Source: Kordiimonas laminariae
GTDB lineage: Bacteria; Pseudomonadota; Alphaproteobacteria; Sphingomonadales; Kordiimonadaceae
Reading direction: 5' to 3'
DNA: 64,000 bases
NCBI RefSeq assembly: GCF_023008165.1
Contig: NZ_JAKQZA010000003.1
Span: 1 to 64,000 of the forward strand
This document shows, in pieces, positions 2 through 49,535 of this stretch. The notes under the pieces were generated by a model, which made no database searches, was not told the origin of the DNA, and saw only the letters and a list, made by a program, of their open reading frames with translations. A program made the position numbers and the translations under genes. Position 1 is the first letter of the stretch, and every line of letters starts with the position of its first letter.

Positions 2-2026
2 GCCCTTCAGGGCGGCACGCCAGACCCAAAGCTTTCTGCGTTGTTCCAAACGCTCCTCTTTACCACCCTGCCCGTTGTATACATAGGCATGGGCGTCTTT
101 ATGGTTGGCGTCATTGCATCTGATCTGGCAAAGCAAGTGAAAGGGCATGCTAAAAAAGAAGCGGATGCATTCCAGGCGGAGGCAGAAAAAGGCTGGCATG
201 TTCTTCAAGATGCAATTGAGGCCGTTCCTGATTTAATTGCCATTGATAATGGCCATTTCCAGCTTATGACCTGTAACCAGGCCTTTGTAGATGTACTCGA
301 TATGCCTAAAAACCAATTGGTTGGTCGAAGCATTGCGGAAATCATGGACCAATTGCAGCCCCGGCTTGTCTACGGTGTGAACGGCAAAAAGATTGAAGAA
401 GGCAAAGAAATCATAAAAGCCCTTTGGGAAGGCTTACAAAATAAGACAACTATTGAATTTGAATTGAATGATGGACGTGCCTTTCTAATGGACTGTGGTC
501 TCCTTCGTTCAGGCGTTCACATTCTCACGGCCCGTGATGTTACAGCTCTTAATCGTTCCACTAAAACACTGAAAAGCATTCTTCACGGTCAACCTTTCCC
601 GGTTCTAGTGTTTGATAAGAAGAAAGAAACTGTGTTGTTCGCCAGTGAAGCTGCTGAAAAGCTTCTAGGCAGCAATATAAAAGGGACCGGCTCGGCATTT
701 TCCAACTTCATACAAAAGCATCATTTGTTATCGAGAGAAGCAGCATCCAAACAAGTGCTGCAAGAAACGGAATTTATGAATGCCGACAATCAAACATTCC
801 CAGTGCTCTTTTCCACGCAGGAAAGTGTGTTTGATGGTAGAGCTGCCATTGTAATGAGCTTCATCGACTTATCGGACCAGAAACGTCTGGAAAGTCAGCT
901 AAAAGAACAGCGTGAAGCTTTGTTCCAAAGTGAAAAAGTCAACGCTTTAGGTACACTCGTAGCGGGCGTGGCCCATGAACTTAATAACCCTCTTACAGTC
1001 ATTATGACCAACACCCACATCGTGGCTGATGCAGTAAACGACCCAGCTGTTACAGAGCGTATGCAAAAGATTGAAGATGCAGTGGAACGCTGCTCTAAAA
1101 TTGTACGATCTTTCTTGAACGTAGCACGCAAAGATTACGGCGATTCTGCACCATTCGATCTTGAAAAATGTATGAAGGAAGCAATTGATATTTCCGGCTA
1201 TAGTTTCCGGCAAAATGACGTTGATATATCTCTTCATATCGCGCCAGATTTACCAGCTATCAAAGGGAACTATAACCAGTTCTATCAGGTATTCTTTAAC
1301 TTACTCCTGAATGCGCTACACGCTATGTCCTCTCAGGTACGGCAGAAGCTTCTATCCATCACCTGCTCATATGATGAGGTAAACAATATTATCAAAGTGG
1401 ATATCGTTGATAGTGGCCCTGGTGTACCTGCAAACATACGCAGTAAAGTGTTTGACCCCTTCTTTACTACAAAGGAAGTTGGCACAGGCACGGGGCTTGG
1501 ATTATTTATTGTCCGCAGTATTGTGGAAGCACATGATGGCAAGATTGACCTTATGCCATCGCAAAAAGGGGCGCACTTCAGGCTTTATCTCCCTGCCTGG
1601 ACCAAAAACTACGCTGATGCCGCGGAAACGGAGACCGAGGTAGATTGTGCTGATTGCCGAATTCTCATCGTTGATGATGAAGAAGAGATTCTGGATGCTT
1701 TAGGACAGATACTCAAAAGCCAAAATCATGATGTAAGCTCCGCACCAAATGGTCAAAAAGCTTTAGAAGTCTTGGCAAACGAACATATCGACTTGATCAT
1801 CAGTGATTTAAGAATGCCTGAAATGGACGGCCCTCAACTTTATGAAAAAGTGTGCTCTGATTATCCGCATCTTAGCGACAAAACAGTCTTTATGACCGGT
1901 GATGAATTATCTCAATTTGCACAGCGCTTTCTATCAACCGCGAACTGCCCTGTACTCAGCAAACCTTTCTCACCAAAGAAAGTAAAAGAACTGTTGGATA
2001 CTTTTATGCAGGCGGAAGCCTCTTAA
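2..2026 (+). CDS. Hybrid sensor histidine kinase with C-terminal receiver (5' end cut)
   Basis: Membrane-linked hybrid histidine kinase that should autophosphorylate on His and pass the phosphate to its own C-terminal receiver. The reading frame is open back to the window edge, so the true start lies outside; the first in-frame start-like codon here is a TTG at 41. Visible in order: a hydrophobic segment (about nt 41-120), a PAS domain (about nt 200-540), a second weaker PAS-like region, a HisKA box AHELNNPL with the His codon at 974-976, an HATPase domain with GTGTGLGLFIV, and a receiver beginning ILIVDDEEE with acceptor Asp in ISDLRMPEMDG (codon near 1805) and the conserved Lys in SKPFSP. 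It ends tail to tail with an OmpR-type regulator, overlapping it by 4 bp. Ligand unknown. The family call is secure; the N-terminal architecture is not visible. Confidence 0.9.
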   Translation, partial: ALQGGTPDPKLSALFQTLLFTTLPVVYIGMGVFMVGVIASDLAKQVKGHAKKEADAFQAEAEKGWHVLQDAIEAVPDLIAIDNGHFQLMTCNQAFVDVLDMPKNQLVGRSIAEIMDQLQPRLVYGVNGKKIEEGKEIIKALWEGLQNKTTIEFELNDGRAFLMDCGLLRSGVHILTARDVTALNRSTKTLKSILHGQPFPVLVFDKKKETVLFASEAAEKLLGSNIKGTGSAFSNFIQKHHLLSREAASKQVLQETEFMNADNQTFPVLFSTQESVFDGRAAIVMSFIDLSDQKRLESQLKEQREALFQSEKVNALGTLVAGVAHELNNPLTVIMTNTHIVADAVNDPAVTERMQKIEDAVERCSKIVRSFLNVARKDYGDSAPFDLEKCMKEAIDISGYSFRQNDVDISLHIAPDLPAIKGNYNQFYQVFFNLLLNALHAMSSQVRQKLLSITCSYDEVNNIIKVDIVDSGPGVPANIRSKVFDPFFTTKEVGTGTGLGLFIVRSIVEAHDGKIDLMPSQKGAHFRLYLPAWTKNYADAAETETEVDCADCRILIVDDEEEILDALGQILKSQNHDVSSAPNGQKALEVLANEHIDLIISDLRMPEMDGPQLYEKVCSDYPHLSDKTVFMTGDELSQFAQRFLSTANCPVLSKPFSPKKVKELLDTFMQAEAS

Positions 2027-2742
2027 AGCGGTGAAACCGCACAATTGAGCAAATAGCCACCACCCCAATAAGTCTTCAAAATTTGAGGCTTTTTGGGGTT
2101 TTCCTCAATCTTCTTTCGAAGCCGTGCCACATAGTTATCGATGCTTCGTTCAAACATATTTGCCATACGTCCTTGTGTGGCCTCCAGAAGGAAATCCCTG
2201 CTCAAGACTGTTTGTGGATTTTCCATAAACACAAGAAGCAGTCTCGTCTCTCCAGAGCTTAACTGAATAGCATCACCTGCCTCCGTTGATATTTGCTGGT
2301 CAATGGCATCCAGCACAAAATCACCAAAACGATATTTCTTGGAATTCTGCTTTGGCGTTTCAATAGATATTTGCTGAGTACGGCGTAATATTGCCTTCAC
2401 TCTAGCAAGCAGCTCTCTAGGGTTAAATGGCTTGATCATATAGTCGTCTGCACCGACCTCAAGACCAACAACCTTTTCAGTATCTTCAGCTTTGCCAGAC
2501 AAGAACATAATCGGCAGAGAGTGGCTTTGCCTGAGCGTACGGCAAATGCTAATGCCGTCATCTTGCCCCAGAACAATATCCAAAATGACCAAATCAATAT
2601 GCTCTTCTGCAATCACCCCCAAAGCCTGCTTTTCATCAGCAGCACATGAGACTTTAAAACCGTTATTTCCTAAATAATGAGATAGGGATTCTCTGATCTC
2701 AGGTTCGTCATCAACGATCAGAATATGCGACACACTTGACAT
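2023..2742 (-). CDS. OmpR/PhoB-family response regulator
   Basis: Two-domain DNA-binding response regulator, 239 residues, normal length for the family. Residues 1-120 are a receiver with the acidic pair D11-D12, phospho-acceptor D55 in LVILDIVLG, S82 and K104 in YMIKPF, so it looks fully active. Residues about 135-235 form a winged helix of the OmpR type ending in the KTYWGGGYLL hairpin. It is convergent with the hybrid kinase at the left edge (4-bp overlap of the stops), so the two are not one operon, although a functional link is possible. The ATG at 2742 begins directly at the receiver, supporting this start. No target site is apparent in the 288 bp upstream. Confidence 0.92.
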   Translation of the reverse strand: MSSVSHILIVDDEPEIRESLSHYLGNNGFKVSCAADEKQALGVIAEEHIDLVILDIVLGQDDGISICRTLRQSHSLPIMFLSGKAEDTEKVVGLEVGADDYMIKPFNPRELLARVKAILRRTQQISIETPKQNSKKYRFGDFVLDAIDQQISTEAGDAIQLSSGETRLLLVFMENPQTVLSRDFLLEATQGRMANMFERSIDNYVARLRKKIEENPKKPQILKTYWGGGYLLNCAVSPL

Positions 2743-3030
2743 TCAAGCTCCATCAAAATTCAGTATTATACTCAATACACTAAGTTAATAATTTTTCTCG
2801 AACTTAATAGTTCATATGCCCAATCAAAATGCCTGCCTGAGAACAAATTATAGGTGTAGTCGCTTTGGTTGCACAGGGCGAAGTACAATTTGATACATCT
2901 TAGTACATTCTTAATTTGATATTTTACCTATAGTTTGTCGGTCCTTTGGACACTCCTGATTAAGGAATATTAGACAGCTATGAACAAATCAATATTCCTG
3001 AATTAAAATTGATGGCAGCAATTTATTTGT

Positions 3031-3516
3031 ATGGTTATGAGGCAACAATCTATCAAATTACGACACTGTCCCTACTGCGGCGGCTGTATGGAAAGAAAGG
3101 GGTTCAGTGCAAGCCTTAAAGCTGTGAGCGAAATATACAGCTGTAATGATTGCTGGAGATCCACTAAACTGCTCTCCACGGCTTCGCAAGGTTTTATAAT
3201 AGGGAACAAACTAATCGTATTAGTTTTGCTCGGTATTCTTTGCGGCATATCTCACGAACTTGTTTCTCTCTGCGGCATGTTAGCGGTCCTTACGCTTTCA
3301 TGGGTGACTTACGACATTTTCAAAATGCTGCGATATAAGATTACGATGCCACTATTGAAGTATCTGCCAGAAGCATCATCACCACTAAAAGAAAAGAGCT
3401 ATAAGCGTCAGTGTAAAAATATATTGCGAGGAGAAAATTGGTTAAAGGGGTTGGCGTTAGGAATCAGCACCGCTTCTTTGTTTCTTTCCCCTGTCATCAT
3501 ATTCGCTTCCCTATAA
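3031..3516 (+). CDS. Zinc-ribbon membrane protein, function unknown
   Basis: Not recognised as a named family. The 161-residue protein starts with a Cys4 zinc-ribbon-like knuckle: CPYC at residues 13-16 and CNDC at 38-41, with an extra Cys at 19. Two hydrophobic segments follow at about 57-76 and 78-96, and a third at about 140-160, giving a cytoplasmic metal-binding head on a small membrane anchor. It is alone on its strand between an OmpR-type regulator and the TetR-like pair downstream, 91 bp before the latter. A nine-base element TTGATACAT lies upstream both of this gene (2890-2898) and of the next one (3519-3527). The coding call rests on the Cys pattern and hydrophobic profile. Confidence 0.65.
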   Translation: MVMRQQSIKLRHCPYCGGCMERKGFSASLKAVSEIYSCNDCWRSTKLLSTASQGFIIGNKLIVLVLLGILCGISHELVSLCGMLAVLTLSWVTYDIFKMLRYKITMPLLKYLPEASSPLKEKSYKRQCKNILRGENWLKGLALGISTASLFLSPVIIFASL

Positions 3517-3607
3517 ACTTGATACATTCTGACACAAATTGAAACACGACACCTAAGCACTCGCACTCTACCCTTACCTGCATTGATCGAAGGTTGGGGA
3601 CATAAAT

Positions 3608-3976
3608 ATGTTAAAGATCACAAAACAGCGCATTATCAAAACATGCGCAGACTGGTGCCAACAGGAAAGGCGCGGTCCATATCAGATAGATTTTTCTCAG
3701 GCTTCAACTATCTGCAAGTGCACAGTAAATGACATTAGAAAGCTCTTCACATCCTGTGAAACGCTTCAACGGTCCATTATTGCTCACGCAAATCAATCAA
3801 AGCATCATCCGCTGGTTCTCGCACATGGTTTAATCGCCAGAGATCCGCAACTGCATGCTCTCAGCAAATCAGAAGTTATCAACGTGTTTCAAGATGCTAT
3901 TGGCTCATGCGCACGTTCGTTTGGTACATCAAAGGCTAACAGGCAGGCCGTAGATGCTACTTCTTCCCATTTCTAA
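3608..3976 (+). CDS. Small TetR-like helix-turn-helix protein A
   Basis: Short 122-residue protein whose residues about 30-61 resemble the recognition helix and fourth helix of TetR repressors (pattern CKCTVNDIRKLFTSCETLQ, where TetR proteins typically have a V-S-x-G-T-L-Y-x-x-F-x-S-K-E-x-L arrangement). TetR proteins usually have about 190-200 residues, so the ligand-binding half is largely missing or reduced. It is followed after 15 bp by a second protein of the same size and apparent fold. GGTTGGGGA about 9 bases before the ATG can serve as ribosome binding site. Function unknown; the TetR relation is a judgement by eye and could be wrong. Confidence 0.55.
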   Translation: MLKITKQRIIKTCADWCQQERRGPYQIDFSQASTICKCTVNDIRKLFTSCETLQRSIIAHANQSKHHPLVLAHGLIARDPQLHALSKSEVINVFQDAIGSCARSFGTSKANRQAVDATSSHF

Positions 3977-39977: not shown

Positions 39978-41416
39978 TTCACGTCTCCTTCACCAGGCAT
40001 ACCCAGTTCAAAATCAGATACTCGGCGTTTGGAAGCATCACTGCGATCATGCACAACAGCACCATCTACAAATGTGATATCTGCCTTCGCATAAACGCTG
40101 AATGGATCAGCAGACCAAAGAACAACATCCGCATTTTTACCAACTTCAAGCGTACCAGTAACATTATCAATACCAAGCGACTTAGCAGGGTTTAAAGACA
40201 GCCACTGCCATGCATCAGCTTTCGAAATATTCAGACCAACCTTATTACCATCAGCCAGCGCCTTTGCAGCTTCTTGGTTCAGGCGCTGAATACCGCCAGC
40301 ATCATCAGAGTGAACAATAGCGCAAGCACCTGCTTTGTGCATGAAAGGAATATTTTCACGGATGCCGTCGTATGCTTCCATTTTGAAGCCGTACCAATCA
40401 GCCCACAAGGCACCGCAAACATTGTTTTCTGCTAAACGGTCTGCAATTTTATAAGCTTCAACACCATGCTGGAAACTGGCGATCTGATAATTAAACTCTT
40501 TCATCAGATCAAGCATCGTACCCATATCGTCAGCTCGGTAGCAGTGCATATGCACTTTAATTTCACCGTCGAGTACACCTACAAGTGTTTCCATACGGTG
40601 ATCACGCTTCGGCGGTAACACATCTTTACCAGCCTTATAATCACGCTCATACTTTTCCCATTCGCGCTGATAAGCCTGTGCGTCAGACCATGCCTGACGG
40701 TAACCGTGCACGTTACCCATCCGAGTTGATGGGCGTTTGCTTACAGGGTTATTGCCGCGACCATAAACACGCTTCGGGTTTTCACCGCATGCCATCTTCA
40801 GGCCATATGGAGCACCCGGGAATTTCATGTCCTGTGCAACACGGCCCGGTACATTCTTGAGGGTTACTGAGCGACCACCAATAAGGTTTGCCGACCCCGG
40901 TAGAATTTGCAGCGCTGTTACACCACCTGCTGCTGCCCGGCCAAAACCCGGGTCCTGCGGCCAAACACTGTGTTCGGCCCAAACACCTGCAGTTACTGGC
41001 TCACCGATTTCATTTCCATCAGAATGCGAGCCTGTACCCGGGCTTGGGTACACACCAAGGTGGCTGTGTACATCGATAATACCCGGCGTTACCCAGCGGC
41101 CATTCGCTTCAATAACACGTGCACCAGTTGGTGCTTCCACAGAGGCACCGATAGCCTTAACTTTACCGTTTTCCAGCAGGATTGAGCCCCCCTCAATCAT
41201 GCCGCCTTTACCGTCAAGAATATTCGCGCCTGTAATCAACGTAGTTTCAGATGGTAGTGGTGTATAACTGGATGGATATGGATCTTTGTTGATTTCAACA
41301 AAAGCACCCTGTTCGGTGGTGCCTTCCGGGCCGCATGCTGCAAGCACTGTCCCAAGCACAAGCATGCTAGCCGCAGAACGAGCAATAACGCCCATTCGAA
41401 CTTTATAATTTTTCAT
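39974..41416 (-). CDS. Amidohydrolase-family lipoprotein (catalytic paralogue)
   Basis: 480 residues from ATG 41416, preceded by AGGGAGA; the frame continues to 41470 but the added residues precede the signal. A lipobox LGTVLAAC marks a lipoprotein signal (Cys at about residue 29). Metal motifs are present: IDVHSHLG (HxH), HMHCYRAD, FQHGVEAYK and IVHSDDAGG. The C-terminus has VGKNADVVLWSADPF. It lies in an operon with the metal-less paralogue that follows it. The substrate is not evident; periplasmic relatives often act on peptides or cyclic amides. Confidence 0.9.
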   Translation of the reverse strand: MKNYKVRMGVIARSAASMLVLGTVLAACGPEGTTEQGAFVEINKDPYPSSYTPLPSETTLITGANILDGKGGMIEGGSILLENGKVKAIGASVEAPTGARVIEANGRWVTPGIIDVHSHLGVYPSPGTGSHSDGNEIGEPVTAGVWAEHSVWPQDPGFGRAAAGGVTALQILPGSANLIGGRSVTLKNVPGRVAQDMKFPGAPYGLKMACGENPKRVYGRGNNPVSKRPSTRMGNVHGYRQAWSDAQAYQREWEKYERDYKAGKDVLPPKRDHRMETLVGVLDGEIKVHMHCYRADDMGTMLDLMKEFNYQIASFQHGVEAYKIADRLAENNVCGALWADWYGFKMEAYDGIRENIPFMHKAGACAIVHSDDAGGIQRLNQEAAKALADGNKVGLNISKADAWQWLSLNPAKSLGIDNVTGTLEVGKNADVVLWSADPFSVYAKADITFVDGAVVHDRSDASKRRVSDFELGMPGEGDVK

Positions 41417-41530
41417 GTTGGTCTCCCTATGTCTGCCATGTGTCTGACAGATCAGGCGAAACCCTATCAAGCAAAACAGTATGTGTCACTATAGCACTGG
41501 TACAACTTACGTTTATCTAAGTATAAAAAA

Positions 41531-41552
41531 ACGGCGAGGAAACCCTCGCCGT
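41531..41552 (-). terminator. Rho-independent terminator of the POT gene
   Basis: ACGGCGAGG and CCTCGCCGT form a 9-bp stem around AAAC; on the minus strand it is followed by TTTTTTT. It lies 30 bp after the transporter stop. Confidence 0.88.
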
Positions 41553-41581
41553 CCTTCACACATTTAGCTGTGTTTCTTTTT

Positions 41582-43126
41582 TTAGTGAACGCCGTGCATC
41601 CATTTGCGTAGCAGCGGTGTCAGGATAAAGAGAACCACACCAATACCAATCGCAAGAAGTCCCACAGAGTGGAACAGATCAATTGTTGCTGGAACGCTTA
41701 GCTCACCAGAGCCAGAACCATGGCCTTCAGCACCTGTCAGGCTTGAAAGGAAACCAGCTACGAAGTTCGCAAATGCTGTGAACAGGAACCACATACCCAT
41801 CATCATACCAACAAGGCGGGCTACAGAAAGCTTTGTGATCATAGAAAGACCAACAGGGCTCAAGCACAGCTCAGCAAGTGTCATGAAGAGATAGATTACA
41901 AATAACCAGAAGAAGCTCTTACCAGGGCCATCAGTTAGACCAAGGCCGTATGAGAATAAAAGGTACCCAATACCAACAAGCAGCATCGCAATACCAAACT
42001 TCGCTGGTGTTGAAGGCTCTAGGCCTCTCTTCGAAAGCTTTACCCACATCCAGGCAAATACCGGTGCGAAAAGAACAATGAATAGCGGGTTCATCGTCTG
42101 AACTTGTGCTGCTGTCAGCGTAAACAAGCCAAGGTCACGATTAAACTGCTGATCAGCAAGAAGTGTCAGGCTCGAGCCTTGCTGTTCAAACAGTGCCCAG
42201 AACACCACCTGGAATACGATAAGGATAGAAGCAACAAACAAACGCTCACGTTCTTCCTTTGTACATTTCATAAAGCCGTATGCTACCACAATCAGCAACA
42301 TCAAGCCTCCAGTACCACCAAGTAGGGTACCAACAAGTGTTTGGTGCTGAACCAGCCACCACATTGCTACAACAGCTACGATACCACCAAGGTAGATCAG
42401 CCACTCTGTGCTCAAACCCGCAAATACAGGCTTCTTCAATTCTTCTTCATTTGGTGGATCCGCACGACCTTCAAGCAAGTGTTGACCTTTCCAGAATACC
42501 ACCAGTCCAGCAAGCATACCAATACCAGCAAGACCAAAGCCGTAGCCCCAACCGTAAGTTTCACCGATACCAGCAACAAGCAGCGTTGCAAGAAGAGACC
42601 CAAGGTTAATACCCATGTAGAAGATAGTGAAACCACCATCACGACGTGGGTCATTCGGCCCATAAAGCGCACCAACAATTGTTGAAATGTTAGCCTTTAG
42701 AAAGCCCACACCTGTGATAATCAAGGCAAGAGAAAGGAAGAAGATTGAAACGTGCAGTTCCGATCTTTCAACCGCGTCTCCGCTCAGGATAGCTTGTGGT
42801 CCTTCAAAGGCGAGCGAGATATGACCTGCTACCAAAAGTATAGCACCGTAAGTCACCGCTTTCCGGCTACCGAGATAACGGTCAGCCAGATAACCACCAA
42901 CAACTGGCAGCATATAAACGAGGCCTGTATAAGCACCATAAATCAGGCTGGCCTCACCAGCTGAAAAAAGAAAATGCTTTGTTAGAAAGAGAATTAAAAG
43001 TGCGCGCATACCGTAGTATGAAAAACGTTCCCACATTTCTGTTAGGAAACAAATACTTAGCCCTATAGGATGTCCTAGTAGCTCCCGTTGCTGCGACCCT
43101 TCGGTCGAACTTTCAACTGTGCTCAC
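41582..43126 (-). CDS. Proton-dependent oligopeptide transporter (POT/PTR2)
   Basis: 514-residue major-facilitator transporter importing di- and tripeptides with protons. The POT hallmark near the N-terminus is LTEMWERFSYYGMRALL, and GGYLADRYLGSRKAVTYG and GFLKANISTIVGALY follow. About 14 hydrophobic segments. The start is GTG 43126 with AAGGGG upstream. It lies beside several peptidases (S9 at 45.3 kb, M56-M23, the gluzincin), so peptide nutrition is a plausible theme. It has its own terminator and faces the BlaI gene across a 345-bp gap. Confidence 0.95.
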   Translation of the reverse strand: MSTVESSTEGSQQRELLGHPIGLSICFLTEMWERFSYYGMRALLILFLTKHFLFSAGEASLIYGAYTGLVYMLPVVGGYLADRYLGSRKAVTYGAILLVAGHISLAFEGPQAILSGDAVERSELHVSIFFLSLALIITGVGFLKANISTIVGALYGPNDPRRDGGFTIFYMGINLGSLLATLLVAGIGETYGWGYGFGLAGIGMLAGLVVFWKGQHLLEGRADPPNEEELKKPVFAGLSTEWLIYLGGIVAVVAMWWLVQHQTLVGTLLGGTGGLMLLIVVAYGFMKCTKEERERLFVASILIVFQVVFWALFEQQGSSLTLLADQQFNRDLGLFTLTAAQVQTMNPLFIVLFAPVFAWMWVKLSKRGLEPSTPAKFGIAMLLVGIGYLLFSYGLGLTDGPGKSFFWLFVIYLFMTLAELCLSPVGLSMITKLSVARLVGMMMGMWFLFTAFANFVAGFLSSLTGAEGHGSGSGELSVPATIDLFHSVGLLAIGIGVVLFILTPLLRKWMHGVH

Positions 43127-43471
43127 AAACTTACCCCTTGATTATTGATCTGTATTTCTGCGTCTTTCTGCGCAGATAACTCCCATGGCTCTTTGCCTTT
43201 AAAAAGAGCGCCCGCCACATTTAAGAACATAAAACTGTAAGATTCAGAAGGAAAAAACGATTAATTTTCAGAAAAAATGGCTCAAAGCCTTGAAAAAGCA
43301 CTCGTTTACTCCACTGCTCTTCATTCTGATTTCACTCCTATAAGATTTACAACTGTTCAGAAAACCACATGAATCAGTATATCTAATGCCCACATTTACT
43401 TTCTTTTCATTCGTGCCTTGACTCAATGTGACATTTGTCACATATTTGCGACAAATGAATGAGAGGTCATT
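43127..43471. other. 345-bp intergenic region between POT and BlaI genes
   Basis: Divergent control region. The left part (43127-43260) holds the transporter leader. No coding signal or strong hairpin is seen in 43200-43420. The right end carries the TGTGA/TCACA dyads described separately. Confidence 0.6.
43427..43457. promoter_or_regulatory. Overlapping dyads before the BlaI-type gene
   Basis: TGTGACATTTGTCACA (43427-43442) is a perfect dyad and fits the Crp consensus TGTGA-N6-TCACA. A second inverted repeat CATTTGTC/GACAAATG (43432-43439 with 43450-43457) overlaps it. The dyads end 15 bp before the BlaI ATG, so a bound protein would overlap the promoter or ribosome site. BlaI autoregulation or Crp control are both possible; the sequence alone does not choose. 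Confidence 0.6.
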
Positions 43472-43846
43472 ATGAAAATTTCCCCAAGTGAACTTCCGCT
43501 CCTTAAAGCGCTTTGGAGTAAGGGCGAATTGAGTGCACGTGAAATTCATGAGCAAGTTAGCGTTTCAAAGAGCTGGAGTTTTTCAACCACCCGTAAAACA
43601 CTAGAGCGCATGGTCGGCAAAGATATGGTCACCATGAGGGAATTCCACGGTGTGCGGGTTTATACAGCACAAGTGGAAAAAGTATCCACACTCGCCAGCA
43701 TGACCCGTGATTTCATCAGCCGTGTTCTTGAGGTAAAAGGCCCCCTTCCTGGTTCCATGTTCACTGGCAGTGAGATCCTCGAGCCAGATGAAATCAAAGA
43801 ACTTGAAAAACTTATGAAAGACTTTGACGAAGGCGAGCGTTCATAA
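43472..43846 (+). CDS. BlaI/MecI/CopY-family repressor
   Basis: 124-residue winged-helix repressor of the BlaI type: ISPSELPLLKALWSKGELSAREI at the N-terminus, a wing with TTRKTLERMVGKDMV, and a C-terminal dimerisation helix. In known systems BlaI-like repressors are inactivated by proteolysis triggered by a BlaR1-type M56 protease. The next gene encodes exactly such a protease, and its ATG overlaps this stop (TAATG). The dyads upstream suggest self-control. Confidence 0.92.
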   Translation: MKISPSELPLLKALWSKGELSAREIHEQVSVSKSWSFSTTRKTLERMVGKDMVTMREFHGVRVYTAQVEKVSTLASMTRDFISRVLEVKGPLPGSMFTGSEILEPDEIKELEKLMKDFDEGERS

Positions 43847-45180
43847 TGTCAGCGCTTTTGTTTCATATCATTTGGGCGGCTGTTCTGCTTGTTATGCACC
43901 GATTGCTCGGTCGGCAGGTAGCAAACCTACGCAAAAACCCCAATCTGGTACTTTTTTTAATCGCACTATCGTTCGCCCCGTATCTAGGGATACTTTTCCC
44001 AACAACGGTACCAATGCTTCCCACCAATATCTGGCTGCCAAGCCTTGATGATATTTCGAACACCACCAACTTTAATGCAGTAGTAAGCTTGCCAACCTCT
44101 GAAAGTACTGTGATAGATATTTTTCAGTTGGTTATCGCAGCAGGTTGCATCATCAGCCTTATCCGATTTGGCTATAGTTACGTTAAACTCGCCCGAATTG
44201 CCCACTTTGCAAAAACATCTGATACAGCAGAAGACATACGTATTTCTGAAAGAAACATACCGCCATATGCCTTTGGCTGGCCAACACGAGCAGTTATTTT
44301 TCCTAAAGATCTTTTAGAAACAACAACGAAAGAACAACAGGCTCTTATTATCCGGCATGAGCAAATGCACATCCGGAAAAAAGACCCCGAGATAGCGACA
44401 GCCCTTGCGTTATTATCAGCCCTCTTCTGGTTCAATCCATTCTTAAAGAAGTTGATTGTAGCGTGGCATAATGCCTGTGAAATCAGAGCGGATAATTTCG
44501 CCCTGAAACGGGCTACAAAAAAAATGCGCAAAGCTTATGCAGAAGCACTGCTTTCAGCTTTGCGCAAGCCAGCAGGAATGGCACTGCAATGCCCTCCTGC
44601 TTCCTTCTCAAATCACAACTTGTGGAGTAACAAAATGAGAATTGAGACTATTATGAAAGGGATAGGCCCATCTCGCAAGCCAAAACGCGATAAAGCCATC
44701 CTCCTAGCTTTCCTCTTGGGAGTTCTAGGGGGTTCAGTAACACTGGCAAGCACAGCGCATGCTATTGGACAAATCAATCTTCCCTTCAGAAATGAACTGG
44801 CACCTATTGTAGATGGTTGCAAATCTCAAGCCTATGAAGCAATGCGTGAAGGCAGGGTTCATAAGGGAATTGATATGGCAGCCCCAATTGGCACACCTAT
44901 CTTTGCCCCAGCCAATTCCTACGTTGTGGCAGCAACAGATGTTTACCAAAACAATCCGAAATGGGGCAAAGTGGTAGTGCTTCAATCAACCAGCGGCATC
45001 ACAACAGTTTTTGCGCACCTAGATAGCTATGCTGTATCTGTTGGCGACAGAATAGAAGAAGGCGATGTCGTTGCATTCGTAGGCAATACCGGCCAGTCAA
45101 CAGGGCCACATGTGCATATTGAAACCTATAAGAATGAAAAACGGGAAGACCCCGGGAAAATATGGCCCAGCCTGAAATAA
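43846..45180 (+). CDS. BlaR1-like M56 protease fused to an M23 endopeptidase
   Basis: 444-residue membrane protein. Residues 1-280 match the BlaR1/MecR1 metalloprotease: helices at about 5-20, 33-52 and 88-108, HEQMH (171-175) and E212 in NACEIRAD as third zinc ligand. After another helix (284-303) comes a periplasmic M23 (LytM) domain with all ligands: H339 and D343 in HKGIDMA, H391, and H422/H424 in GPHVHIE. BlaR1 proteins carry a penicillin-binding sensor here; this one carries what looks like an active cell-wall hydrolase. It is coupled to the BlaI gene. Hypothesis: cell-wall state sensed by the M23 domain controls BlaI cleavage. Fusions of this type do appear in automated annotation, but I know of no functional study. 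Confidence 0.9.
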   Translation: MSALLFHIIWAAVLLVMHRLLGRQVANLRKNPNLVLFLIALSFAPYLGILFPTTVPMLPTNIWLPSLDDISNTTNFNAVVSLPTSESTVIDIFQLVIAAGCIISLIRFGYSYVKLARIAHFAKTSDTAEDIRISERNIPPYAFGWPTRAVIFPKDLLETTTKEQQALIIRHEQMHIRKKDPEIATALALLSALFWFNPFLKKLIVAWHNACEIRADNFALKRATKKMRKAYAEALLSALRKPAGMALQCPPASFSNHNLWSNKMRIETIMKGIGPSRKPKRDKAILLAFLLGVLGGSVTLASTAHAIGQINLPFRNELAPIVDGCKSQAYEAMREGRVHKGIDMAAPIGTPIFAPANSYVVAATDVYQNNPKWGKVVVLQSTSGITTVFAHLDSYAVSVGDRIEEGDVVAFVGNTGQSTGPHVHIETYKNEKREDPGKIWPSLK

Positions 45181-45244
45181 CATAAGAATTTCCGGCGACA
45201 ATTAAGGTTATCGCACTCCCTTATATGGTCTGCTGCCGGGATAG

Positions 45245-45276
45245 ATGCCATCTCTCACCCTACTGGGAGGTGGCAT
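45245..45276. terminator. Hairpin between converging M56-M23 and S9 genes
   Basis: ATGCCATCTC pairs with GAGGTGGCAT (one G-U) around a 12-base loop. It lies 64 bp after the plus-strand stop and 3 bp after the minus-strand stop; T-runs are weak. Confidence 0.5.
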
Positions 45277-45279
45277 TGT

Positions 45280-47139
45280 TCAGTCTCGAACATGGTCCTC
45301 AAGAAATTCTTGCAAATACTTCAGATACACAGACCATGCTTGTGGTGTATTCAGCACATGACCAACATCATTAAGAGCGACAAACTCAACCTCTTTCCGC
45401 AAAGACAAAAGCCGACGCGCCATCTTTTGGCTGTGAAGAAACGGCACAACACTATCACTGGTACCGTGCAATAATAGCAGCGGATCTCTTATTAAATTGA
45501 CCTTATGGAGTGGTGATTTCTGGAACAGTGCTTTCTCACTGCTATCACCAACAATAGCAGAGAGGCTAAGGTAACCAAACCGACTTCCCCGGAAATTTTC
45601 TACATAATCATTGAGAGAGGCAATGCCATTAAGACTAATGCCGCAAGCCAGTTTATGACTATCAAACGCTAGCGCCATCATGGCGGCATATCCGCCATAA
45701 GATCCCCCCATTATGCAAAGCCTATCACCACTCGCATAACCACTTGAGATTACCCAATCAATGGCCGAGGATATATCGCGCTGCATGGTGCCTCCCCACT
45801 CTCCATACCCTGCTTTCCTCCAAGCTTCCCCATATCCTGTAGAACCTCTGAAATTCGGTTGTACCACCGTGAAGCCCATGGCAACCAATAGAGACACTTG
45901 CGGATCAAATGCGCGCACTGCCCGGCTTTGAGGACCCCCGTGTAAATATAGAATTGCTTTCCCTTTGTCGCCGCCTTTGGGCGAGGATATCAATGTATGC
46001 ATAAGCTTTCTTTTCGCTACCGGAATGAAAGCGCTTTCTGTTCGAACCATCGGCAGCAAGCTATACTTATGCTCAGGTAAAAGCATTGCTTCTTTCTTTG
46101 CTGTTTTATAAAGCACATAAGATGGGGGACGGTGACTATAGTCCACCATAAAAAGTTTCACCCTGCCGTCCCTACTACTGGAAAGGAAAGAAATATTGTC
46201 CTCTCCAATCTTATTCGCAACAAATTGAAGTTCCTCTTTAAAACCTTTTTGCCATACAAAGGCCTCCCGACCTTCTGCATAGAAAACTGCCCCAAAAACA
46301 ACGTCAGCACCGGGATGTATGAGAGCAGAAGCAATATCATATCCTCGATGCCCAGCCAGCCGATCTATAAAATCACCGCTATTAATATCCAGCCGCCAAA
46401 GAGCCTTTTTGTCACTGGCATGCGCTGAAAGTGTAAGTGCTGTCGCACCACCTGTTTCAACCGAAAGAACCGCAGGCGGCGTGCCCATAATGTAATCGTG
46501 CTCTGAGATAACCTTCCAACTACCAGCTACGTCAGGCCCTAGAAGGATATGGTTATTGCCCTGAAAGCCTTCCCCAAGTTTTACTTCCCCTTCAGGAGAA
46601 GCCCACCAGCGGATAACCGGCGCCCACGCACTGATAATCTTCGTCGAAACACCTCTCACTGCATCCACTCGGTACACAGCTGGGTAACCCTTAACTTTTG
46701 GGTCTTCCCACTGCATTAAAATATTGGTCGGATCATCTGGGATCGCACTCAAAAGCACCGGAGGTAGCTCATTAGGCCTTGGTCCCCCGTTTTCTATAAG
46801 CGGCTTTAAACGCTTAATATGAGCATCATAAAGAACAAGGCCACCTTCTTTAAGCGACAATAAAAGACGGCCATCACCGACCCAGGCGGTCCAAAGAACT
46901 TGTGATCGTTGGTACGGGAGCTTCTCCCTATTCGAAAACCCCTTTTCCCAACGCCAAACAGAAAGCTGAGCTTGCTTCGTTTCTCTTGTATAAGCTGAAA
47001 TGAAATGGCCATCCTCTGACAGCATAGGTTCCGCTATTAGCGGATTATCCGACAGTTGCTGGATAAGTGCTTCGTCAGCCACTGCATAGTATGACGGCAC
47101 AAACAAAGCTATAATCAGAATAAACAGCAAATTTCTCAT
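45280..47139 (-). CDS. Exported S9-family prolyl-oligopeptidase-like peptidase
   Basis: 619 residues from ATG 47139 (GGGA six bases upstream); ATG 47151 is an alternative. A signal peptide ends near VADEA. The N-terminal half is a propeller-like region and the C-terminal third an alpha/beta hydrolase with GGSYGGYAAM (Ser nucleophile), HGTSDSVVP (Asp) and NDVGHVLN (His), typical of acylaminoacyl/dipeptidyl peptidases. HGGPQSRAVRAFDP precedes. It should trim peptides in the periplasm or outside. With the POT transporter it fits peptide use. Confidence 0.92.
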   Translation of the reverse strand: MRNLLFILIIALFVPSYYAVADEALIQQLSDNPLIAEPMLSEDGHFISAYTRETKQAQLSVWRWEKGFSNREKLPYQRSQVLWTAWVGDGRLLLSLKEGGLVLYDAHIKRLKPLIENGGPRPNELPPVLLSAIPDDPTNILMQWEDPKVKGYPAVYRVDAVRGVSTKIISAWAPVIRWWASPEGEVKLGEGFQGNNHILLGPDVAGSWKVISEHDYIMGTPPAVLSVETGGATALTLSAHASDKKALWRLDINSGDFIDRLAGHRGYDIASALIHPGADVVFGAVFYAEGREAFVWQKGFKEELQFVANKIGEDNISFLSSSRDGRVKLFMVDYSHRPPSYVLYKTAKKEAMLLPEHKYSLLPMVRTESAFIPVAKRKLMHTLISSPKGGDKGKAILYLHGGPQSRAVRAFDPQVSLLVAMGFTVVQPNFRGSTGYGEAWRKAGYGEWGGTMQRDISSAIDWVISSGYASGDRLCIMGGSYGGYAAMMALAFDSHKLACGISLNGIASLNDYVENFRGSRFGYLSLSAIVGDSSEKALFQKSPLHKVNLIRDPLLLLHGTSDSVVPFLHSQKMARRLLSLRKEVEFVALNDVGHVLNTPQAWSVYLKYLQEFLEDHVRD

Positions 47140-47298
47140 GAATATTCCCATGCATTATTCATGCAAGTATCTGGGCAAAAGGTCAATTTCCACTTAATGC
47201 CGCTACGGCCTTCTATAACATCCCGGATAGGTATCAGATTTACTTGCCATAAAACCTAATTGCGCCAAATAATAACTCAAGGATAACGGGACAATATC

Positions 47299-48234
47299 AT
47301 GGCAAAACATTCTTCGACGCAGTGGCAGATAATCAAGCCATCTGATATATTAACCAAGGAAGAAAGCCACCGGATCAGGCAACGGTCTGACGCGTGGGGG
47401 TTCTGGCTGGTCTTTCACTGCTGGGCAATGATTGCCGCAGCCTGGGCGCTGTATCTACTACTCCCTAATCCAATTACATTTTTTGTAATGCTTATCGTTG
47501 TTGGTGGTCGTCAGTTAGGGCTTTCAATCCTTATGCATGAAGGCAGCCACGGCATGCTTTTTAGAACCCGGAACCTAAATGAAAGAATTACCCAGTGGTT
47601 TACAGCCTGGCCTGTGCTGTTAAACGTGCATGGATACCGTATCCGTCATATGGCCCATCACCGTTTTACCCGCACGGAGAAAGATCCTGAGAACTTCCTA
47701 TATACTCCCTTTCCAGTGACTAAGCCAAGTATGGCACGGAAATTCCTACGTGACCTTACAGGTATTGCATTTGTCCGCACTAATGTCGGTCTGTTCCGTT
47801 ATTTCTGGGGAGAAAAGGAAGGCCGCGGAAAACGTTTGTTTGATTTCTATGCAGGCCCAATTTTCATGAATGCAGTAATGTTCGCTGGCTTCTTCCTCGC
47901 AGGCATGCCTGAGCTTTATTTCTTAATGTGGCTATTGCCTCTAGCCACCACATATATGCTGGTGCTTCGGATCAGAAATATTGCCGAACATTGCACCATG
48001 CCTGACCTAGAAGACCCACTTAAAAACAGCCGCACCACGCTCGCAAACATCTTTGAACGCGCGACAGTAGCCCCATACTGGGTTAACTATCATATCGAGC
48101 ATCATGTGCTGCCATTTGTACCCTGCTACCGCCTCAAGGAAGTTCATAAATTGATGCTTGAAAAGGGATATGGGGAGCGCATGGAGATAAAAAAGGGATA
48201 TTGGGACGTGCTTAAGCTGAACGCAGCCTTATAG
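47299..48234 (+). CDS. Membrane fatty acid desaturase-family protein
   Basis: 311 residues, di-iron acyl desaturase fold: HEGSH (80-84), HMAHH (117-121) and HIEHHVLP in the last quarter, with four membrane helices (about 38-58, 60-76, 185-205, 208-225). The arrangement fits the FA_desaturase family rather than the hydroxylase at 23.7 kb. It should introduce double bonds into acyl or carotenoid-like chains using O2. AACGGGAC is the likely ribosome site. Single gene. Confidence 0.9.
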   Translation: MAKHSSTQWQIIKPSDILTKEESHRIRQRSDAWGFWLVFHCWAMIAAAWALYLLLPNPITFFVMLIVVGGRQLGLSILMHEGSHGMLFRTRNLNERITQWFTAWPVLLNVHGYRIRHMAHHRFTRTEKDPENFLYTPFPVTKPSMARKFLRDLTGIAFVRTNVGLFRYFWGEKEGRGKRLFDFYAGPIFMNAVMFAGFFLAGMPELYFLMWLLPLATTYMLVLRIRNIAEHCTMPDLEDPLKNSRTTLANIFERATVAPYWVNYHIEHHVLPFVPCYRLKEVHKLMLEKGYGERMEIKKGYWDVLKLNAAL

Positions 48235-48317
48235 CCTTCTCACATTTTTTCTGTGACTTTTTCCCATTCTGATTTAGGTCATAAAGACAGGGGTTAATCG
48301 GAATGGGGAGGATATCC

Positions 48318-49535
48318 GTGGCTTTTTCTTGGAAAACAGGCGTTAAGGTAGCTATCGCTGGAGCAGTGCTTTATGGGGGCTATGTAGCTGTGAACTTCGG
48401 TTTGGGCTTTTATGAGCTTGCGACTTTTTACGATACGGAAAAGATAACAGAAAACTTCCGGACAAGCTCCGCCAAATTCCCACATTCTGTGATTAAAACC
48501 AGCACGCCATGGGAGTTCAAACGCGCTGAGCAGACTATCCCACAACAGTATGAATATGACGGGAAGACTAAGGATTTAGCCGAATTCCTCGAGATCACGG
48601 GGACAACAGGTCTGCTTGTTGTAAAAGACGACACCATTTTGTTTGAGGAATATTATCAGGGCGAGAAAGATACTGACCGCCATAACATGTTCTCAGTAAC
48701 CAAATCTTTTGTTTCCGCACTTATTGGTATTGCGATCGAAGACGGTCTTATTGAAAGCATCGATGATCCAATCACCAAGTATGTACCGAAACTCAAAGGT
48801 AGTGGTTATGATGGCGTGATCATCAGGGATATTCTAACGATGTCATCCGGTATTCGCTTTACAGAAGATTATGGTGATCTCTCCTCGGACGTAAACCGTA
48901 TGTCTATGGCCATCGCAACTGGCGGGTCACTTGATGATTTTGCAACGAGCCTCATAAGTGAACGCGAACCCGGTACTTTCAATAACTATGTTAGTGTAGA
49001 TACCCATGTTCTCGGCATGATGCTTGTAAATGTCACTGGAAAAACCCTTACAGACTATCTTCAGGAGAAAATCTGGCAGCCAATTGGTATGGAGCATGAA
49101 GGTATTTGGGCCATTGATGGTGAAGGCATGGAAGTGGCTATGGGCGGCATGTCTGTAAGCCTAAGAGATATGGCGCGTCTGGGCAGACTATATCTCCATG
49201 AAGGAAATTGGAACGGGGAACGCATTGTTCCAGCACAGTGGGTGAAAGACAGCGTAACTCCAAGCGCTCCTCATTTGATGGCTGGTTTTAATAACCCCGG
49301 TTCAGATACGCCTTACGGATACGGTTTTCAGTGGTGGACCCCATCAAAACCACGAGGTGATTATATGGCTTCAGGTATTTACCACCAGTTTATATATGTA
49401 GACCCAAGCACAAACATTATCATTGCAAAAACCAGTGCAAACAAAGGCTTCACCAACCCGGAAAACAAAATGCAGAAGGACGAAACTATTACTGCCTTCC
49501 AACAGATTGCCAAGAAGCTTGCAGCCGACGAATAA
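48318..49535 (+). CDS. Serine hydrolase, beta-lactamase class C-like
   Basis: About 405 residues from GTG 48318, which has GGGGAGGA six bases upstream; the ATG at 48303 lies inside that ribosome site. An N-terminal helix (about 10-30) anchors or exports it. The SxxK motif is SVTK in NMFSVTKSF and the Tyr motif is in FNNYVSVDTHVLG. The C-terminal YGFQWWTP and HQFIYVDP are typical of the EstB/class C family. Substrates of such enzymes range from beta-lactams to esters and D-peptides; none is assigned. A terminator follows. Confidence 0.9.
   Translation: MAFSWKTGVKVAIAGAVLYGGYVAVNFGLGFYELATFYDTEKITENFRTSSAKFPHSVIKTSTPWEFKRAEQTIPQQYEYDGKTKDLAEFLEITGTTGLLVVKDDTILFEEYYQGEKDTDRHNMFSVTKSFVSALIGIAIEDGLIESIDDPITKYVPKLKGSGYDGVIIRDILTMSSGIRFTEDYGDLSSDVNRMSMAIATGGSLDDFATSLISEREPGTFNNYVSVDTHVLGMMLVNVTGKTLTDYLQEKIWQPIGMEHEGIWAIDGEGMEVAMGGMSVSLRDMARLGRLYLHEGNWNGERIVPAQWVKDSVTPSAPHLMAGFNNPGSDTPYGYGFQWWTPSKPRGDYMASGIYHQFIYVDPSTNIIIAKTSANKGFTNPENKMQKDETITAFQQIAKKLAADE

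Follow-up and report, generated by a model that had tools for sequence, protein, structure and literature searches.

What does a BlaR1-type receptor sense when its outer domain is a cell-wall hydrolase fold rather than a penicillin-binding sensor? The question is raised by two overlapping genes on the forward strand of a 64,000-nucleotide stretch of Kordiimonas laminariae DNA (contig NZ_JAKQZA010000003.1, positions 1 to 64,000; the whole stretch is hereafter called the window), the first encoding a BlaI-family repressor and the second a protein in which an M56 protease is fused to an M23 peptidase domain. The presence of this BlaI and M56-M23 pair in the window is confirmed. Our reading, to which we give a probability of roughly 0.6, is that the pair forms a switch of the BlaI/BlaR1 type whose receptor would read peptidoglycan through its M23 (LytM-type) domain.

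An earlier note, made from the letters of the window alone, had described a BlaI-type repressor followed, with a TAATG overlap, by a BlaR1-like HExxH protease, and the open reading frames (ORFs), the overlap, and the Pfam domains are all present. The repressor matched Penicillinase_R (PF03965), a family with a winged helix and a dimerisation region, at 2.6e-18, and the fusion matched Peptidase_M56 at 1.2e-23 over residues 37-259 and Peptidase_M23 at 5.1e-27 over residues 338-436, each above its own cut-off. The residues named in that note, i.e., HEQMH 171-175, E212, H339, D343, H391, H422, and H424, were likewise all found in place. By hydropathy, the fusion contains four strong transmembrane (TM)-like stretches in the BlaR1 order (TM1 to TM3, the protease, and TM4) with the M23 domain after the last, and a weaker fifth hydrophobic stretch (182-206) lies inside the protease just past HEQMH. 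When a profile of the M56 region built from 13 fusion rows was compared to the Protein Data Bank (PDB), BlaR1 (8exp and 8exs) was the only match at E values up to 0.01, with an E value of about 2e-13. Counted along this profile alignment, H171 corresponds to BlaR1 His201, H175 to His205, E212 to Glu242, D216 to Asp246, Y231 to Tyr261, F254 to Phe284, and R265 to Arg294, residues whose roles in BlaR1 are described in PMC9834060 (in part; this wording marks a source represented here by a portion of its text).

Relatives of the pair were drawn from genome samples that overlap, are not independent, amount to no census, and count the window's own genome in any group to which it belongs, and all counts are counts among the matches listed; genomes, contigs, loci, and families carry our own handles (G, C, L, and f). 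Full-length fusions were found in 3 of 40 relatives, in 12 of 398 genomes of the phylum, and in 6 of 119 genomes of family f201. The order sample of 196 genomes yielded three intact fusions and one broken one, the class sample of 385 genomes, searched with a narrow profile, two fusions, and the 229 genomes of the class of G915 two more matches, both already in the phylum sample. In family f153, 65 of 105 genomes matched: 59 intact fusions, three M56 proteins without M23 (G1286, G1333, and G1341), two genes cut by a contig end (G1290 and G1269), and one M23 remnant with a stop (G1301). The intact fusions, the window's included, number 72, of which 70 were placed in one alignment and two (G1335 and G1340) were read separately. 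A same-genus genome has the same gene arrangement at 91% protein identity, and a search of genome contigs added one distant clostridial M56 protein with BlaI (L031). Nowhere in a plasmid collection was at least 80% of the window fusion, the G376 fusion, or the M56 part of the window protein covered.

The M56 residues H171, E172, H175, E212, and D216 are invariant in the 70 aligned fusions, R265 is present in all 70, and F254 in 63. An AxA motif follows TM4 in 60 of the 70, against a mean of 43.8 in shuffled tails (maximum 54 over 200 shuffles), and follows TM2 in 11. In the model proposed for BlaR1, an extracellular loop (EL1) blocks the site of the sensor until a ligand displaces it, after which the protease cuts BlaI, and signal peptidase sheds the sensor (PMC9834060, in part). 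Because the fusion has an equivalent loop (about residues 59-84), the cut-site residues, and the AxA motif after TM4, we suggest a BlaR1-like receptor in which the groove of the M23 domain would be the ligand site.

A profile of seven BlaI relatives matched the PDB entries for MecI (1sd6) and BlaI (1sd4) over nearly their full length. Staphylococcus aureus BlaI is cut by BlaR1 at Asn101-Phe102 (PMC9834060, in part), and the equivalent of that Phe102, F97 in the window (chain position counted along the alignment), is kept in 73 of 74 BlaI proteins. The stretch singled out in the earlier note starts at 43427, which is the first base of an operator palindrome, TGTGACATTTGTCACA, a feature absent from that note. 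The core of this operator lies inside the spacer of a promoter-like match, and the last two bases of the palindrome overlap the -10 box; the promoter-like match is weak by itself, since the region contains three matches of this kind where shuffled sequence gives 3.5, i.e., chance level. A core of the form KACANNTGTM occurs within 140 bp before blaI at 71 of 74 loci (12 of 14 outside f153 and 59 of 60 inside it), where base shuffles lead one to expect 0.045 and 0.425, respectively. The commonest core is GACANNTGTC outside f153 (11 of 14 loci) and TACANNTGTA inside it (51 of 60). The cores match the BlaI/CopY operator class, for which the consensus RNYKACANNTGTMRNY is given, and their outer flanks are unlike the CopY consensus (PMC7253601, in part).

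The best PDB matches of the window M23 domain are M23 peptidases, its zinc motifs HxxxD and HxH are present, and all five active-site residues are kept. In the alignment, position 391 falls on LytM His260, the catalytic His that stands some 30 residues ahead of HxH (PMC9662197 and PMC4594094, both in part), and in LytM the replacement of His260 or His291 by Ala abolishes activity (PMC4594094, in part). Of the 70 aligned fusions, 13 have H at position 391, 52 have Q, 4 have S, and 1 has R; among all 72 intact fusions, 58 have no His there (53 Q, 4 S, and 1 R). The loss belongs to f153, where 58 of 59 intact fusions are without His391 (G1340 has Q391, and G1335 is the single member with H391), and the other 13 fusions, the window's included, all keep the residue. 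Meanwhile, D343, H422, and H424 are invariant in the 70 aligned fusions, and H339 varies once (Q339 in G833). As controls, standalone M23 proteins retained the His in 92 of 92 distinct domains. The full set of five residues is present in 84 of these, and the other 8 have a D at the final position of HxH; the 92 were the best-scoring matches, and hence biased to well-kept domains, and none has an M56 domain in frame. Two further standalone domains, from G376 and G768, whose fusions have Q391, keep all five residues, bringing the total to 94 of 94 with the His.

The earlier note had proposed that the outer domain could be sensor and enzyme at once. For the window this is compatible with the full set of catalytic residues, but it finds no support as a rule for the group: because most intact fusions are without the H391 equivalent, hydrolysis is not what has been conserved. 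Judged by its residues, the f153 M23 domain, with its general-base His gone, is probably able only to bind. A zinc site left intact while H391 is lost looks like the enzyme-to-sensor step seen in BlaR1, taken with another cell-wall enzyme; the BlaR1 sensor is itself similar to the class D beta-lactamases and turns over slowly (PMC7593790, in part). As a side observation on this domain, the longer members of the genus coded g744 (L196, L197, and L266, from G1334, G1339, and G1335, respectively) seem by eye to have an extra degenerate LytM-like stretch before M23, and Pfam counted two M23 stretches in G1335.

A direct comparison of the two kinds of outer domain is offered by G833, in which a second exact operator precedes a second blaI (L268, G833:C1:5814500-5818600, 586-3904). 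Two genes come after this blaI on the same strand: the first encodes M56 joined to a penicillin-binding transpeptidase domain (PF00905, 2.9e-37), and the second belongs to the metallo-beta-lactamase superfamily (PF00753, 2.8e-20). In the M56 tree, this PF00905-type M56 is sister to the M56 of the G833 M56-M23 fusion (100/99). The two sister receptors stand under the same operator with an M23 domain in one and a penicillin-binding domain in the other, and the M23 domain therefore occupies the place of the BlaR1 sensor. The idea in the earlier note that M23 is the sensor in place of the penicillin-binding domain fits the BlaR1 topology and the presence of both types in G833.

We infer the topology, the ligand, the direction of the signal, and the cleavage of BlaI by the M56-M23 system as follows. 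At rest, BlaI would sit on the operator over the promoter and repress its own operon, and the receptor would cross the membrane with four TM helices, its M56 protease lying in the cytoplasm and its M23 domain in the periplasm. A stem peptide or cross-link of peptidoglycan entering the M23 groove would shift the M23 domain and TM4 and render the protease active, a movement modelled on the way a beta-lactam displaces EL1 from the BlaR1 sensor. The M56 protease would then cut BlaI before Phe97, and the operon would be derepressed. The M23 domain of the window, being catalytically complete, might slowly hydrolyse its ligand and so reset the switch, and the f153 domain, without the general-base His, would only bind.

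Several points weigh against this sensing role. In the window's own genome, a zero-mismatch site for the window-type palindrome occurs only at its own promoter and no site occurs with one mismatch, with no candidate output gene in that genome apart from the operon itself; allowing up to two mismatches raises the count to 12 places, where the reversed control has 9. A scan of 17 genomes with TGCGACANNTGTCGCA found one exact site away from fusion promoters, in G833, and its one-mismatch sites elsewhere (13, against 22 for a control pattern) are at chance level. With CGCTACANNTGTAGCG, 15 genomes gave nine exact sites, all at own promoters, and away from these 4 sites with one mismatch, where the control had 57. 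Exact operators in the scanned genomes are confined to the system's own promoter, except for the second blaI operon of G833. Furthermore, the M23 enzyme may still matter in some members, as the window domain is catalytically complete by its residues and G1335 keeps H391; the ligand of an H391-less domain could be a protein and not peptidoglycan, as for EnvC and NlpD; the G833 domain has lost a zinc ligand (Q339); and unfused M56 proteins stand inside the fused branch of the M56 tree, the base of which is not strongly supported. One of the 13 one-mismatch sites, a copy of the relatives' operator reading TGCGATACGTGTCGCA, is common to two sister genomes (G000:C20:277065 and G013:C1:3189586; L236 and L237), such sites being at chance level.

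The strongest rival, which we consider unlikely, takes the M23 domain to be the effector, i.e., a self-controlled endopeptidase, membrane-tethered or shed, with M56 and BlaI as its feedback control. It gains from the restriction of exact operators to the own promoter outside G833, from the complete catalytic residues of the window M23, and from the excess of AxA motifs after TM4 (60 of 70 against 43.8 shuffled), which are like the site of BlaR1 sensor shedding (PMC9834060, in part), but it sits poorly with f153, where 58 of 59 fusions have lost the catalytic His and yet keep the zinc ligands, BlaI, and, at nearly all loci, the operator core. Moreover, some relatives keep BlaI-M56 with another outer domain or none, and G833 has a penicillin-binding domain in the place of M23.

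EnvC, NlpD, and DipM are degenerate LytM factors, and a second rival, less probable still, would make the outer domain a docking module of this EnvC/NlpD-like kind for an amidase or division protein, such that the switch would report division state rather than peptidoglycan as such. The loss of H391 in 58 of 72 fusions would suit such a role, as M23 domains without catalytic motifs do serve as protein hubs (PMC9662197, in part). The degenerate members described in that source, however, are without catalytic motifs and/or zinc, whereas here H339, D343, H422, and H424 are almost invariant, which suggests that the zinc site and the groove are still used.

The coupling of the two genes bears on the remaining alternatives. 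At 78 of 78 fetched loci of the group with an M56 domain (74 plus 4 further), the 72 intact fusions included, blaI lies directly upstream on the same strand, and at 73 of 74 loci the spacing is within -8 to +3 bp, G833 being the exception at 64 bp. The link between M56-M23 fusions and BlaI, which the earlier note proposed to look for among relatives, is supported by these loci. The same note had named a stop or frameshift between the two domains as grounds for giving up the idea; of the loci read, 72 are intact, the G183 frame breaks within M56 rather than at the junction of the domains, and G1301 retains just an M23 remnant. In G183 (L033 1495-2933, minus strand) the break falls between HExxH and the third-ligand region, and BlaI and M23 coding remain.

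It is improbable, in light of this pairing and of the cut-site Phe kept in nearly all BlaI proteins (73 of 74), that M56 cuts another substrate and is unlinked from BlaI, with BlaI repressing the operon and answering a cytoplasmic peptidoglycan fragment (reportedly the case for Bacillus licheniformis BlaI), even though a dipeptide derived from peptidoglycan turnover makes the complex of BlaI/MecI with DNA less stable on binding the repressor (PMC3305447, in part). Finally, a functionless chance fusion or annotation artefact, to which the two broken relatives (the G183 M56 frame and the G1301 M23 remnant) and the two genes cut by a contig end (G1290 and G1269) might be held to point, is already contradicted by conservation, with 72 intact fusions in several families and M56 active-site residues invariant in the 70 aligned.

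We examined the history of the peptidoglycan-sensing candidate on an M56 tree of 74 rows, 40 of them fused. The fused rows fall in one branch of 47 with 7 unfused rows inside it (branch support 85/88, not starred), and fusion state requires a minimum of six changes, five of them forced by starred branches; trees with one change made up 0 of 200 bootstraps. The tree is consistent with one fusion followed by several losses or swaps and is also compatible with separate gains. One row outside the fused branch (L210) ends at a contig end, and its label is unsure. The state of residue 391 requires two changes on this tree, since those f153 loci that belong to g741 group with the window-type clade; of the 40 fusions on the tree, which leaves out G1335 and G1340, 27 lack the His. 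The M23 tree, at 126 columns, is too short to decide monophyly. Exchange and loss of the outer domain can be seen directly at individual loci: G1286 keeps BlaI-M56 but in place of M23 matches TonB_C weakly, below the cut-off (E 4e-4), G1333 and G1341 keep BlaI-M56 and have no M23 by Pfam, and G833 adds the transpeptidase version. TonB_C is also weakly matched in the M56 proteins of G017 and G019. The G1334 row (451 of 693 residues) was not used in this outer-domain Pfam scan.

The N-terminal block of the receptor has been exchanged as well. Between the window and its sister species G013, blaI is 93% identical and fusion codons 123-444 are 96% identical, but codons 1-122 are only 70% identical. 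The synonymous divergence (dS) of codons 1-122 is 1.55 against 0.17 in the rest of the gene, and therefore the TM1-TM3 block, including the outer loop, was swapped by recombination in the window or in G013; adaptive divergence of residues 1-122 was considered and set aside on these values. The diverged block lies at 43826-44200, where nucleotide identity is 70% between flanks that are 93-96% identical.

Table 1. Position, strand, and basis of the features of the blaI and M56-M23 operon in the window.
Feature	Position	Strand	Basis
Promoter-like -35 TTGACT / 17 / -10 CATATT	43418..43446	+	Consensus scan
BlaI/CopY-type operator palindrome TGTGACATTTGTCACA; core GACATTTGTC at 43430-43439	43427..43442	.	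Core type at 71/74 loci
Inverted repeat CATTTGTCACA / TGCGACAAATG overlapping the palindrome, possible second half-site	43432..43457	.	Sequence
BlaI-family repressor, 124 residues	43472..43846	+	ORF list and Pfam
BlaI Phe97 codon	43760-43762	+	Alignment with S. aureus BlaI, on Phe102 just past the BlaR1 cut
M56-M23 fusion, 444 residues, start overlapping the blaI stop (TAATG)	43846..45180	+	ORF list and Pfam
TM1 (residues 3-21), TM2 (34-52), outer loop (about 59-84), TM3 (88-106)	43852..44163	+	Hydropathy; topology by BlaR1 analogy (PMC9834060)
M56 zinc motif HEQMH (171-175)	44356..44370	+	Residue check; H171, E172, H175 in 70/70
M56 third-ligand motif E212-xxx-D216 (EIRAD)	44479..44493	+	70/70 aligned fusions; BlaR1 alignment
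Phe254 (BlaR1 Phe284, autocleavage P1') and Arg265 (BlaR1 Arg294)	44605..44640	+	BlaR1 alignment
TM4 (residues 284-302), then signal-peptidase-like AHA (304-306)	44695..44763	+	Hydropathy; AxA scan
M23 domain (residues 338-436): zinc ligands H339, D343, H424; catalytic H391, H422	44857..45153	+	Pfam, PDB, residue check, alignment

The surroundings of the operon (Table 1) were considered for further partners. A POT transporter gene (41582-43126) diverges from the blaI intergenic region and occupies the same place in G013, at 55% protein identity; it was set aside as an operon partner, since nothing ties it to the system and its place was checked in G013 alone. The downstream S9 peptidase gene was set aside too, being on the opposite strand. 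In G683, the fusion gene overlaps at its end with a gene for a PF00144 serine hydrolase (L109:2627-3817); a PF00144 gene also occurs in the window, at 48303-49535, outside the blaI-fusion operon, and among the fusion loci the Pfam scan of neighbours covered that of G683 only. The window's own genome contains three further BlaI-M56 pairs (L089, L090, and L092, on contigs C26, C25, and C20), two of which have ankyrin repeats after M56 (L089 and L090), the third (L092) being a 981-residue frame. A scan against a defence library gave no match, a search for RNA families over 41000-48500 gave none, and no tandem repeats were found.

Taken as a class, these proteins invite a broader proposal, which we regard as an even bet: a BlaR1-like receptor class, which we take to be proteobacterial, may sense peptidoglycan by an M23 domain that is crippled at the general base in one family with the zinc site kept, the BlaI/M56 chassis may have made cell-wall enzymes into receptors more than once, and the window would hold the complete form. 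To our knowledge, the sensing of cell-wall state in Gram-negative bacteria is largely open. Should the outer domain bind stem peptides or cross-links and thereby bring about the cleavage of BlaI, the fusion would be a one-protein, membrane-spanning peptidoglycan sensor with the blaI promoter as a simple readout. The H-to-Q lineage provides a natural comparison of complete and crippled receptors in which sensing is separable from cutting with no engineering needed, and G833 ties the M23 version to the penicillin-binding version through a common operator.

The earlier note knew of such fusions only as automated annotations, and the literature found agrees: M23 with M56 is listed, without a function, among domain combinations that jointly make up less than 1% of matches (PMC9662197). 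No functional account of M56-M23 proteins was found in the open-licence PubMed Central (PMC) literature, most subscription papers being outside this scope, and the terms M56 and BlaR are absent from the main text of a LytM survey in Agrobacterium (PMC8416486, in part). New here are the loss of H391 in one genome family and the M23 and penicillin-binding sister receptors of G833 under one operator.

Among known systems, the pair is close to BlaR1/BlaI and MecR1/MecI of Staphylococcus (PDB 8EXP, 1SD4, and 1OKR), with which it shares a BlaI-type gene with an M56 protease, the TM layout with an outer C-terminal domain, HExxH, ExxxD, the autocleavage-site Phe, Arg294, the Phe after the BlaI cut, and an operator of the KACANNTGTM type. 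In contrast to these, the C-terminus of the window fusion is M23 and not a penicillin-binding, class D-like sensor, and the operon has no beta-lactamase or penicillin-binding protein gene. The LytM/lysostaphin-type M23 endopeptidases (LytM, MepM, and ShyA) have the five active-site residues of the window protein and supply its best PDB matches, but the fusion M23 is attached to a signalling protease, and the LytM His260 equivalent is replaced in 58 of 72. Similar to the degenerate factors EnvC, NlpD, and DipM (PMC9662197, in part), the H391-less fusions have a catalysis-impaired M23 in a probable non-cutting role; they differ in keeping the zinc ligands and in being coupled to M56 and BlaI. 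Some M56 proteins end in a different outer domain (TonB_C-like in G017, G019, and G1286; ankyrin in L089 and L090); they also have blaI upstream of M56, but a different outer domain implies a different signal or function, and on the M56 tree the fused branch does not contain the ankyrin forms. Another close system is the second BlaI-M56 operon of G833, which has the exact operator and a sister M56 in common with the M56-M23 operon of that genome and differs in its PF00905 transpeptidase outer domain and in the metallo-beta-lactamase-superfamily gene that follows.

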